From positions 1-32,918 of the forward strand of contig CANIFU010000027.1 of assembly GCA_947466965.1 (NCBI GenBank): 32,918 nucleotides of DNA, given 5' to 3'. This document shows, piece after piece, positions 2,736-7,111 of this stretch. The notes below the pieces were generated by a model, which had not been told where the DNA came from, did no database searches, and saw nothing but the letters and a program-made list of their open reading frames with translations. The DNA is from Bacteroidota bacterium (lineage in GTDB: Bacteria > Bacteroidota > Bacteroidia > 2-12-FULL-35-15). A program made the position numbers and the translations under genes. The stretch's first letter is position 1, and each line of letters begins with the position of its first letter.

Positions 2736-3662
2736 ATGAATAAAATCAGCCATCTATATTTAGCCCTATTTCTCTTCTTTTCAACGTTAATGTTTGCTCA
2801 GGAAACAACGGAGAGCGAAACGACTGAAACGCCAGGAAAACAGCACCCATTTAAAATTGGATTTTATGTGGGATCCTATTTTGCAAATAAATACACAGCC
2901 GGTGTTTATGATGGTTATGGCTTTGATATGGATGGTGTGAGAATTACTAATTTCGAGGAGAGCTGGATGAATAACAAGATCAACTTTCAATATGGTGGCG
3001 GTAACGGACAAATAGACCAAATCGCACAAGCGCTGAATGTAAATCCCCGAAATTCTCCTTCACCAGGCTGGGAATTATTTACTAAAGAAAATATGCCCGT
3101 TAACATGCGTTATACCGCCTCCTTTTTATTCGGCTTACAATGCAGATACTCGGTAGATAATAAAAATGCAATTTCCTTAAATGTGAATGCTTCAAAATTA
3201 AATGTTTCAGGAAACTTTACAATCACTACTATCCCTCCTACCGGTTCTAGCCAAATCAATAAGAGCATACAAACGTTTGGGATAAAAGGCGGTGAACAGC
3301 GTTTAATGATTCAGATTGGATACAACAGGTTGTTTGGCGACAATGAAACAATCAATTTCTTTGCAGAAGGTGGATTAAATATGACGTATTCTCAATTCGA
3401 TAAAAACGAGATCCTCATTAATAATCTAAAGATTGATTTAACCGAATTCTATGATTACCAGGGAATTCAGTCAGGTTATACGAAACTACCAAGTGGAATG
3501 GGATTGGGAGCGTATGCCGGAGTAGGGATCAACATTGCGATGGGTGAAAAATTTACGATTCAATTAATTTACAGTCCTTCCTATGAGGGAATTAAGATCG
3601 GAGATAAACCAACATTGAATTGGCAGCATTCTGTTGGGCTAAGAGCCTATTATAATTTTTAG
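2736..3662 (+). CDS. Secreted outer-membrane beta-barrel-like protein, function unknown
   Basis: A 308-residue protein with a clear signal peptide (M-N-K-I-S-H start, Leu/Phe-rich core, cleavage near F-A-Q-E at 20-23). The mature chain has many alternating hydrophobic strands rich in Gly, Asn, Tyr and Thr. It ends with strand-like segments and a terminal aromatic, R-A-Y-Y-N-F, as expected for an outer-membrane beta-barrel recognised by BamA. Segments such as F-F-A-E-G-G-L-N-M-T-Y and G-A-Y-A-G-V-G-I-N-I-A look like transmembrane strands. I recognise no specific family and no substrate can be inferred. It is convergent with the downstream DUF58 gene (42-bp gap). No confident promoter is visible. 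Confidence 0.75.
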   Translation: MNKISHLYLALFLFFSTLMFAQETTESETTETPGKQHPFKIGFYVGSYFANKYTAGVYDGYGFDMDGVRITNFEESWMNNKINFQYGGGNGQIDQIAQALNVNPRNSPSPGWELFTKENMPVNMRYTASFLFGLQCRYSVDNKNAISLNVNASKLNVSGNFTITTIPPTGSSQINKSIQTFGIKGGEQRLMIQIGYNRLFGDNETINFFAEGGLNMTYSQFDKNEILINNLKIDLTEFYDYQGIQSGYTKLPSGMGLGAYAGVGINIAMGEKFTIQLIYSPSYEGIKIGDKPTLNWQHSVGLRAYYNF

Positions 3663-4634: not shown

Positions 4635-4764
4635 AGTTTGAAAATTGAAAGTTTTTTAAACGTAATGAAATTGAAAATTATTGCCATCAAGCTTTAGATA
4701 AAAGTAAAGCAGTAGGTTACTTACCTACTGCCAACTTTGAACTTTAAACTTTTTAAACTTGAAC
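4628..4764. repeat. Composite short-word inverted repeat between DUF58 and trxA
   Basis: The left arm (4628-4660) is built from words like GTTCAAAGTTTGAAA, and the right arm (4733-4764) from AACTTTGAACTTTAAAC, roughly its reverse complement. Between them is a perfect hairpin: GCAGTAGGT, loop TACTT, ACCTACTGC (4709-4731). Read on the minus strand it follows the trxA stop directly and could fold and terminate the trxA transcript. The composition resembles low-complexity intergenic repeats I recall from Bacteroidota genomes. Confidence 0.7.
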
Positions 4765-5081
4765 TAAAGCAACGCTTTAAGTTTTGCATCTAATACAGAT
4801 TTAGGAACTACTCCAACTTGCTTATCAACAACCTCTCCACCTTTAAAGAAAAGGATTGTAGGGATGTTGCGGATTCCGAACATTGCAGAAATATTTGCGT
4901 TATTGTCAACGTTAACTTTTCCAACAACGGCTGTGTCTGCATAATCTTTTGATAATTCTTCAACAACAGGTCCAACCATACGACATGGTCCACACCATTC
5001 TGCCCAAAAGTCAAGTAATACAGGTTTTGTTGATTTTGCTACTAACTCATCAAAGTTAGCGTCTGTGATTTCTAATGCCAT
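4764..5081 (-). CDS. trxA: Thioredoxin
   Basis: A 105-residue single-domain thioredoxin that reduces protein disulfides in the cytoplasm with electrons from thioredoxin reductase. The active site W-C-G-P-C is at residues 29-33, preceded by V-L-L-D-F-W-A-E. The cis-proline loop appears as R-N-I-P-T-I-L-F-F, and the length matches the family. There is no signal peptide, so it is not one of the exported TlpA-like forms. Its stop overlaps the edge of the composite repeat at 4628-4764. Upstream are two overlapping candidate promoters, one vegetative and one sigma-54-like, and a 17-bp dyad (5135-5203). This gene is therefore a good candidate for regulated expression. Confidence 0.97.
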   Translation of the reverse strand: MALEITDANFDELVAKSTKPVLLDFWAEWCGPCRMVGPVVEELSKDYADTAVVGKVNVDNNANISAMFGIRNIPTILFFKGGEVVDKQVGVVPKSVLDAKLKALL

Positions 5082-5134: not shown

Positions 5135-5166
5135 TAAAGATAAAATTGTATTTCAACATAGGCAAA
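5135..5166 (-). promoter_or_regulatory. Vegetative-type promoter for trxA
   Basis: On the minus strand TTTG (5163-5166) is followed after 20 bases by TATCTTTA (5135-5142), close to the Bacteroidota consensus TTTG, N19, TAnnTTTG. Transcription would start near 5130 and leave a leader of about 50 bases. The -33 element overlaps the sigma-54-like -12 element, so the two readings may compete or only one is real. Confidence 0.6.
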
Positions 5167-5178
5167 CGATTTGCCAAA
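5161..5178 (-). promoter_or_regulatory. Sigma-54-like -24/-12 promoter element upstream of trxA
   Basis: The minus strand reads TTTGGCAAATCGTTTGCC. The GG at 5175-5174 and GC at 5163-5162 are separated by 10 bases, exactly the spacing of the RpoN -24/-12 pattern (TTGGCA, N6, TTGC). A start near 5150 would give a leader of about 70 bases. The same DNA is also an inverted repeat, GGCAAA-CGA-TTTGCC, so an operator for a dimeric regulator is an alternative reading. Confidence 0.45.
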
Positions 5179-5186
5179 TTGTTTTT

Positions 5187-5203
5187 AATGACAGGCTGTC
5201 ATT
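5187..5203. promoter_or_regulatory. 17-bp dyad AATGACAGgCTGTCATT, candidate regulator site
   Basis: Perfect 8-bp arms flank one central base. It lies just upstream of the sigma-54-like element of trxA and directly abuts the -33 box (5204-5207) of the divergent 5273 gene, so a protein bound here could affect both genes. An 8+8 dyad with a 1-base centre is expected about once per 65 kb in random sequence, so its placement exactly between two promoters is suggestive. The binding protein is unknown. Confidence 0.5.
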
Positions 5204-5234
5204 TTTGTTAATTTATGTAAAAGAGGTATCTTTA
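5204..5234 (+). promoter_or_regulatory. Bacteroidota-type promoter for the 5273 gene
   Basis: TTTG (5204-5207), then exactly 19 bases, then TATCTTTA (5227-5234), close to the consensus TAnnTTTG. The start would be near 5240, about 33 bases before the ATG at 5273. The upstream edge abuts the 17-bp dyad at 5187-5203. Confidence 0.65.
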
Positions 5235-5272: not shown

Positions 5273-7111
5273 ATGGTAAAACAACAATATTCTTATATGA
5301 TCATTACGCCAGCTTATAAAACATATTTTTTTTCTTTTTGCTTATTTTTAATATTCTTACATAGCATAAACTCAAATGCACAACCAAGAATCGAAGGCAT
5401 TGTTTCACATAATGGCAAGCCGCTTCAAGGAGCCGATGTACTTATTATCAATAGTTCAGGTACAGAAAAAGTTTTAACGACGAACGCTGCAGGTGGTTAC
5501 AGCTTTAATTTTCCTCCGAACGAAGAGTATGACATTTCTATCTCAAAAGTAGGATTTACCCAATTTCAGATCAGTTATTCAACTATGGGTTTGACAGGGG
5601 AAGCATCAAAGAAATTCAAAAGCACATTCAAACCTGTAAGTGAGCTGTTTGAGCTTCCTTCTGACCAGGGAACAATTTTAAAATTAAACGCTATTTTAGA
5701 TAAACCATTATTAAGCTATTACTTTAATTCAGAAAAAAACACGATGGACTCGGATGAAAATTTGGAGCAATCTTTAACACAGCGTTTATCGGAAGTGGCA
5801 GCAATATCAGGAACAAAATCATCAACAATAGAAACAAACTATAAAAGTGCATTGGCAAAAGGGGATGCTGCTTTGCAATCTAAAAATTACGATTTAGCAA
5901 AGTCTGCATATAATGAAGCACTCAATGCGAAACCAGACGAACAATATCCAAATACAAAACTTGCGGAAGTAGCTAAAGCCATTGCCGATGCAGAAGCAAA
6001 AGAAAAAGCGGTTGCGGCAGAAAAAGAACGATTAGCGAAAGAAAAAGTCTTGGCCGATGCTGCCGCGAAAGAAAAAGCTGAAAAAGATAAAGAATTAGCT
6101 GCTGCTGCTGCAAAAGAAAAAGCAGAAAAGGATAAAGCATTAGCGGCTTCCGCGGCTGAAAAGGCGGCGGCTGAGCTTGCTGAAAAAAATAAATTAGCGA
6201 AAGATAAAGCCGACAAAGATAAAGCAGCTGCCGATGCAGCAGAAGCCGAACGATTGGCAAAAGAAAAAGAAAAAGCAGATGCCATTGCGAAGGCCAAAGC
6301 AGCTAAGGAATTAGCCGATAAGGAATTGGCGGATAAAGCGGCAGCCGAGCTTGCAGAAAAAAATAGATTAGCAAAAGAGAAAGCTGAGAAAGACAAAGCG
6401 GCTGCCGATGCTGCAGAAGCCGAACGATTGGCAAAAGAAAAAGAAAAAGCAGATGCCATCGCCAAAGCGAAAGCTGATGCGGATAAAGCTGCTAAGGAAA
6501 TTGCTGACAAAGCTGCTGCTGATCTTGCAGAAAAAAATAGATTAGCGAAAGAGAAAGCAGACAGAGAGAAAGCTGCTGCTGATGCTGCAGAGACAGAACG
6601 ATTAGCGAAAGAAAAAGAAAAAGCGGATGCCATCGCAAAAGCCAAAGCAGATGCCGATAAAGCGCTTGCTGAACAAGCCGAAAAAGAAAGAATTGCAAAA
6701 GAAAATGAATTAAAATTAGTACAAGCTAAATATGATAATGCGATTGCCAAAGGTGACTCTTGCGTAAAGGCGAAAAGTTATGATATGGCTAAAACCAGTT
6801 ATACAAGTGCTGCGTCTCTGAAGCCCAAAGAAACGATTCCTGCCATAAAAATAAAAGAAGTGGATTCCTTAATTGAAACCGAAAAACGTTCGCTTTACAC
6901 AAACGAATTAGCAAAAAAATATCCCGAAGGTGTAACAGAGGAAAAAGTAAAAGAAGGAAATGCTAATATTACCAAACGTATTGTAGTAAAAGGAAATACA
7001 GGTAATTTATATATCAAAAAGGAAACAGGCTTCGGAGCAACATACTTTTTTAAAGATGGTGCAACAATTACGGAGAGTGAGTTTATTAAAAATACGGAAG
7101 GGAAGAAATAG
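5273..7111 (+). CDS. Secreted Lys/Ala/Glu-rich helical protein with carboxypeptidase-regulatory-like N-terminus
   Basis: A 612-residue exported protein. Residues 1-37 form a signal peptide ending N-S-N-A-Q; Met9 is an alternative start that keeps the signal. Residues 38-105 resemble a CarboxypepD_reg-like beta-sandwich (I-E-G-I-V-S-H-N-G-K-P-L-Q-G-A-D-V). A TPR-like motif at about 190-230 (G-D-A-A-L-Q-S-K-N-Y-D-L-A-K) is matched by a second at about 487-530 (G-D-S-C-V-K-A-K-S-Y-D-M-A-K). Between them lies about 255 residues of Lys/Ala/Glu/Asp helix, including three copies of a 58-residue unit (299-472). The C-terminal 70 residues are distinct and appear conserved in related proteins (Y-P-E-G-V-T-E-E, Y-F-F-K-D-G-A-T-I-T-E). 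TolA domain II is a physical analogue, suggesting a periplasm-spanning role, but no homology or function is claimed. It separates dnaE from trxA in the opposite direction. Confidence 0.85.
   Translation: MVKQQYSYMIITPAYKTYFFSFCLFLIFLHSINSNAQPRIEGIVSHNGKPLQGADVLIINSSGTEKVLTTNAAGGYSFNFPPNEEYDISISKVGFTQFQISYSTMGLTGEASKKFKSTFKPVSELFELPSDQGTILKLNAILDKPLLSYYFNSEKNTMDSDENLEQSLTQRLSEVAAISGTKSSTIETNYKSALAKGDAALQSKNYDLAKSAYNEALNAKPDEQYPNTKLAEVAKAIADAEAKEKAVAAEKERLAKEKVLADAAAKEKAEKDKELAAAAAKEKAEKDKALAASAAEKAAAELAEKNKLAKDKADKDKAAADAAEAERLAKEKEKADAIAKAKAAKELADKELADKAAAELAEKNRLAKEKAEKDKAAADAAEAERLAKEKEKADAIAKAKADADKAAKEIADKAAADLAEKNRLAKEKADREKAAADAAETERLAKEKEKADAIAKAKADADKALAEQAEKERIAKENELKLVQAKYDNAIAKGDSCVKAKSYDMAKTSYTSAASLKPKETIPAIKIKEVDSLIETEKRSLYTNELAKKYPEGVTEEKVKEGNANITKRIVVKGNTGNLYIKKETGFGATYFFKDGATITESEFIKNTEGKK
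6167..6688 (+). repeat. Three tandem 174-bp coding repeats
   Basis: Copies at 6167-6340, 6341-6514 and 6515-6688 each encode 58 residues beginning A-A-(E/D)-L-A-E-K-N and sharing A-E-x-E-R-L-A-K-E-K-E-K-A-D-A-I-A-K-A-K-like segments. Nucleotide similarity is high, so recent duplication or gene conversion is likely and copy number may vary between strains. The opposite strand carries a long Ser/Ala/Phe-rich open frame that is only a by-product of the repeats. Confidence 0.9.

Follow-up and report, generated by a model that had tools for sequence, protein, structure and literature searches.

The promoter region of the thioredoxin gene trxA in a Bacteroidota genome of 3.1 Mb (128 contigs) carries what comparative sequence evidence indicates is a real RpoN-type promoter with a candidate activator site, apparently a fused-form member of a partly known chaperone RpoN regulon. 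The region lies in a window of 32,918 nucleotides (positions 1 to 32,918 of contig CANIFU010000027.1), the whole stretch of DNA that we analyzed. We consider it probable that this promoter has two modes, one served by RpoN and an activator encoded next to miaB and the other a vegetative basal mode, and that the activator represses itself.

The thioredoxin encoded by trxA, the presumed controlled gene, has 105 amino acids (4764-5081, minus strand; Pfam PF00085, NCBIfam TIGR01068 above its cut-off). Its relatives were almost exclusively in Bacteroidota records, the nearest named loci being from uncultured 'Bacteroidetes bacterium' genomes at 88-90%. Upstream of trxA the minus strand reads, in order, TGACAGCCTGTCA, eleven bases and TTGGCAAATCGTTTGCC. 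The original prediction had described a minus-strand core with RpoN-like GG/GC spacing and a dyad just upstream, and both were found: the predicted -24/-12 core TTTGGCAAATCGTTTGCC occupies 5161-5178 (minus strand), with GG at 5175-5174 and GC at 5163-5162, ten bases apart, so that the G of -12 is at 5163. The dyad takes a 17-bp form, AATGACAGgCTGTCATT, at 5187-5203, with a 13-base core, TGACAGGCTGTCA, at 5189-5201; read on the minus strand this core is TGACAGCCTGTCA, of the form TGNCA-N3-TGNCA, the putative activator site, centered at about -45 and placed 11 bases before TTGGCA. From the GG and GC positions, the RpoN start site is predicted at 5150 (minus strand), 12 bases past the -12 C, which would leave a leader of 69 bases.

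A TTTG -33 box is part of the vegetative Bacteroidota promoter. As had been proposed, vegetative-type boxes for both trxA and the divergent gene overlap or abut the core and the dyad. For trxA, a TTTG at 5163-5166 (minus strand) is common to the RpoN -12 and the vegetative -33, and a -7 box TATCTTTA follows 20 bases later at 5135-5142 (minus strand); this shared TTTG is what makes the vegetative pair overlap the RpoN core. The divergent gene has its -33 TTTG at 5204-5207 (plus strand), two bases from the dyad, and, N19 further on, its -7 box TATCTTTA at 5227-5234 (plus strand). Against the vegetative pattern TTTG-N19-TAnnTTTG, both the N20 pair of trxA and the N19 pair of the divergent gene are near matches only, with A for the final G. 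The TAnnTTTG part of this pattern is given in PMC9723704, on Flavobacterium psychrophilum. A sigma-70-type scan, which does not model the promoters of this phylum, returned a single unrelated plus-strand site, a lower count than in its shuffles. A palindrome within the core creates a second GG-N10-GC, on the plus strand. A reading of 5161-5175 as a plus-strand terminator was rejected because the segment lies between divergent genes and there is no transcript there to end.

Neither GG-N10-GC nor the core alone is more than hardly above chance in the window's genome. Genome-wide, TGACAGNCTGTCA occurs once without a mismatch and twice with a single one; the core pattern TGGCA-N6-TTGC has 21 places versus 8 in the reversed control, and a mis-spaced N5 version used as a control has 26 versus 6. 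Taken together as a composite, dyad, N11 and core (TGNCA-N3-TGNCA-N11-TTGGNA-N6-TTG) do exceed chance, with 35 places at up to three mismatches versus 13 in the reversed control, and the window site is the sole perfect match. At up to two mismatches the genome holds seven sites, which lie before trxA, htpG, lemA, grpE-dnaJ, dnaK and lon, with one lacking a fitting gene (names from Pfam; dnaJ by reading). The full element was not found before groES of this genome. By eye, the upstream region of that groES (3262-3460 of locus L121) instead shows TGTCAGAAA...TTTCTGACA, which resembles a hairpin and has T after it, together with a weak core, TTGGTATAATTTCTGA.

The same association with chaperone and protease genes was found across the class. 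In 98 class genomes the composite at up to one mismatch gave 165 matches versus 9 in the reversed control; these fell in 82 genomes, and 16 had none at that threshold. We inspected 80 sites, and the next gene was a chaperone or protease gene at 68: htpG (26), grpE (22), dnaK (7), hsp20 (5), clpB (4), and lon, groES, an HtrA-like protease and a rhomboid protease (one each). Nine were without assignment, including one (L188) dropped as hsp20-like in the absence of a Pfam match. The remaining three lie before miaB in Flavobacterium-type genomes. In them AG replaces GG and the TTTG belongs to a vegetative TATCTTTG; a dyad over a vegetative promoter is a better reading of these three than an RpoN site. 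In a pattern-independent check, we collected htpG upstream regions by protein match and found the element with up to three mismatches in 28 of the best 30 (of 37), versus 0.1 expected. The other 297 phylum genomes gave 44 matches in 37 genomes versus 13 in the control; some families outside the class (f31, f39 and f53, for example) show a few pattern matches where the control has none.

The dyad stands close to the predicted sigma-54 start, which the original prediction had regarded as its weak point. Closeness is instead the conserved norm: in the 28 htpG upstream regions the spacing was N11 in 19, N10 in 4, N12 in 4 and N14 in 1. Enhancers of classical NtrC-family promoters lie farther upstream at a loose distance, and LuxO-type sites share the 5-3-5 layout of the dyad described here. 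The present promoters have in common with the classical ones a dyad for a Fis-type helix-turn-helix (HTH) and a GG/GC core, and differ in a spacing of N11 give or take one and in a -12 that is mostly TTGA. The base following TTG was A in 41 and C in 23 of the 80 class sites, and A in 21 and C in 3 of 27 htpG sites, so most of these sites depart from the textbook GC at -12.

That chaperone genes of Bacteroidota have RpoN promoters is already known; we found neither their activator nor its binding place named in the main texts of PMC9723704 and PMC12316311. According to the former, mapped -24/-12 (SM4) starts in F. psychrophilum precede groES-groEL, lon, dnaK, grpE-dnaJ, htpG, clpB, skp and genes for a rhomboid protease and a thioredoxin-family protein, which is largely the gene set of the present regulon. 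That text leaves the activator open among three PF00158 proteins and contains neither 'TGTCA' nor 'palindrom'. Under SM5, the TAnnTTGY type, it also places a sigma-54-dependent regulator together with lptE; we infer that this regulator corresponds to the miaB-linked activator described below. In the main text of PMC12316311, Bacteroidota promoter matrices flag GroEL, GroES, IbpA, GrpE, DnaJ, DnaK and proteases for sigma-54, and sigma-54 dependence is stated for both grpE and groES of Bacteroides thetaiotaomicron and for grpE of F. psychrophilum; we found no activator or activator site alongside the predicted sigma-54 heat-shock enrichment, and 'thioredoxin' and 'trxA' do not occur.

The original prediction called for rpoN and an AAA activator in the genome, and both are there. 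The rpoN product matches PF04552 (E 5.2e-53), and in L001 we read ARRTIAKYR, which we take to resemble the RpoN box. All 98 class genomes and 388 of 395 phylum genomes have rpoN; the seven phylum genomes without a match all belong to other classes, and hence the class offers no rpoN-less genome for contrast.

Three strong PF00158 (AAA+ sigma-54 activator) proteins are encoded in the window's genome. The one linked to miaB lacks a receiver domain and carries PF00158, a GSFTGA loop (GAFTGA-type) and a strong Fis-type HTH (PF02954, 1.4e-13); of the other two, L003 has a weak Fis HTH below the cut-off and L002 has none by Pfam. Its gene stands in the order miaB-activator-lptE-unknown-secG-groES-groEL (Pfam names). 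The gene before secG, without a Pfam match, presumably encodes a TPR protein. Three Flavobacterium-type genomes have a comparable cluster order, two with a small gene inserted. At E<=1e-110, 48 of 50 class genomes have the activator as a single match. Outside the class only one of 60 chosen genomes reaches that threshold, a scarcity that may only reflect distance, and a MiaB motif was near 2 of 10 inspected activator loci.

Upstream of the miaB-activator operon the dyad recurs. MiaB was next to the activator in 23 of 30 loci by a loose reading, and from those 23 we drew 20 for analysis, all with a strict MiaB motif. A perfect dyad was present upstream in 17 of the 20 (0.02 expected), and in 13 of these 17 a -7 box followed 19-23 bases past the TG of the second half-site (shuffles, 0.22); the dyad therefore covers the vegetative -33 of the activator operon. 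In the window's own genome, the dyad upstream of miaB, read by eye, is CGCCATTTTGTCA with TATCTTTG behind it. Three further miaB upstream regions (L373-L375) each have a perfect dyad. The simplest reading is that the miaB-linked activator binds the dyad, activates the RpoN promoters and represses itself; the position of the dyads over the -33 suggests the self-repression, and the putative link between activator and dyad is one of gene neighborhood.

The RpoN promoter could be real and its dyad be read by a different protein, such as an OmpR-type repressor like RprY or one of the two other RpoN activators. A repressor or a contact activator would fit a near-fixed site around -45, and the two other PF00158 proteins are strong matches. 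In Porphyromonas gingivalis, RprY is taken to repress groES, dnaK and clpB, whose promoters it binds (PMC3646045, main text). The words 'binding site', 'consensus' and 'motif' are absent from that main text, which leaves no RprY site to compare. Against a different reader stand the dyad on the operon of the receiver-less activator itself and the strong HTH of that protein beside the weak or missing HTHs of L003 and L002. We regard this alternative as unlikely, and take the miaB-linked protein as the candidate reader.

A reduced genome gives a view of a smaller system. Its 489,825-base contig (22% GC; 2,392 bases read N) encodes one RpoN and one receiver-less activator, and the activator query has no further match there. 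The composite was not found with fewer than three mismatches, and occurred 5 times with three versus 2 in the reversed control. Traces of core or dyad are present at dnaK, lon, grpE and groES, the sites being worn or split: dnaK has a perfect core and, about 46 bases farther up, a one-mismatch dyad, lon a core without a dyad and grpE a dyad without a core. Neither was found at trxA. The distance at dnaK suggests that the spacing is not absolute. This 0.49-Mb genome may be a minimal RpoN system serving mainly chaperone genes.

To follow the element at trxA, we searched 36 genomes. A match at E<=1e-20 was present in 35, and in 33 the orthologue was clear (E<1e-50); we compared 30 loci of the genus. 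The composite with up to one mismatch lies upstream of trxA in 28 of them, 11 bases separating dyad and core in 25, 12 in 2 and 10 in 1. TTGGCA and TTG are present in 28/28 of these loci, which were selected for at most one mismatch. The base after TTG is A in 12, T in 10 and C in 6, so that the conservation of GG-N10-GC, which the original prediction had proposed as a check, holds for GG-N10-G and mostly fails for the final C (6/28).

These loci also bear on whether trxA has a vegetative promoter only, TTTG-N20-TATCTTTA, with the RpoN-like core an accident of the -33 region and a palindrome. The core by itself is near chance in the genome, and a vegetative TANCTTTA box is present in 22 of the 30 genus loci, properly spaced in 20 of the 28 that bear the element; the two dyad-less loci (L049 and L058) retain a vegetative TACCTTTA. 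Yet the eight loci without the vegetative box (L043, L046, L054, L055, L061, L064, L065 and L066) all keep both dyad and core, and all have TTGA at -12. We also asked how often a -7 box lies 17-22 bases past TTG, with background taken per six positions farther down. It did so at 20 of 28 genus trxA sites (background 0.73), and at only 1 of 80 class sites (0.91) and 1 of 27 htpG sites (0.27). The box is thus enriched at trxA and at background elsewhere, and the TTTG is therefore a -12 in general. Furthermore, grpE start codons lie 18-51 bases past TTG (21 scored, taking the most upstream ATG), the shortest distances being too close for a -33. A purely vegetative trxA promoter is accordingly quite improbable. 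The preferred reading is that, at trxA of this genus, the -12 TTTG has additionally been taken up as a -33, as the sequences indicate.

The RpoN control of trxA that had been proposed is borne out by comparison: rpoN is in the genome, the spacing of GG and the -12 G is kept in 28/30 loci, and the element also precedes chaperone genes of the kind with mapped RpoN starts in F. psychrophilum (PMC9723704, main text). We therefore regard RpoN control of trxA as a well-supported prediction.

A regulator shared by trxA and the divergent gene had also been suggested. That gene (5273-7111, plus strand) encodes 612 amino acids with a CarboxypepD_reg-like start (Pfam) and Ala/Lys/Glu-rich repeats, which are long and of the KEKADAIAKAKA type at 5887-6750, where a large mechanical ORF runs on the opposite strand. 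We located its homologues by tblastn around the 30 genus trxA loci and found them at 13. The element is present in 17/17 loci without the gene and in 11/13 with it, and both element-less loci (L049 and L058) possess it; the element therefore belongs to trxA, which speaks against the shared regulator, and membership of the divergent gene in the regulon is without evidence. That the dyad serves as an operator for this gene, alone or with trxA, is very improbable: its end lies two bases from the TTTG at 5204, which it could block, and against this stand the loci that keep the element without the gene and the chaperone genes that the motif precedes across the class.

Beyond the genus, trxA bears the element in few lineages. 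Among 80 named trxA loci, 11 had it with up to two mismatches versus 0.1 expected from shuffles (spacings 8-14 allowed), and it was not found at that threshold in the other 69. L233 and L234, two of the 11, come from near relatives of the genus. The rest of the 11 cover, among others, Pedobacter (L239, a perfect match), Mucilaginibacter (L236 and L240), Chitinophaga (L292 and L293) and a Sphingobacteriales genome (L244).

In the mechanism that we propose, sigma-54 RNA polymerase would rest on TTGGCA-N6-TTG, waiting for activation. The receiver-less AAA+ activator, encoded between miaB and lptE upstream of groESL, would bind TGNCA-N3-TGNCA near -45 and, upon protein misfolding, remodel the waiting polymerase, and trxA would thereby join a chaperone and protease regulon with dnaK, grpE-dnaJ, htpG, lon and lemA. 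In the second mode, the -12 TTTG would double as a vegetative -33, paired with the TATCTTTA box. As one TTTG is both boxes, two polymerases would compete for the same DNA and trxA would keep a basal level. The activator would shut down its own operon, where the vegetative -33 overlaps the same dyad. Misfolding as the inducing signal is a guess, because the passages of PMC9723704 on induction name blood agar, osmotic pressure and plasma as conditions, with no 'heat shock' among them.

More broadly, we lean slightly toward the view that Bacteroidia have a misfolding response without a dedicated heat-shock sigma factor, run by a conserved receiver-less RpoN activator of the miaB-lptE-secG-groESL cluster that acts through a close, near-fixed site and uses the same site to shut off its own vegetative promoter, with trxA as the fused case. 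Activators of this class do not usually work from a near-fixed site centered near -45. Relative to the literature searched, which covered main texts, both the close dyad with its near-fixed spacing and the assignment of the miaB-linked activator as its likely reader seem to be new: we did not find the dyad named in PMC12316311, PMC9723704, PMC3646045 and PMC3162934.

If this is right, the site, a probable self-repression loop and a candidate activator that 48 of 50 class genomes share would together make the chaperone switch of this large class directly testable. Thioredoxin would count among the protein-repair factors, and its fused RpoN/vegetative promoter could serve as a simple model for the competition of two polymerases over a single box.
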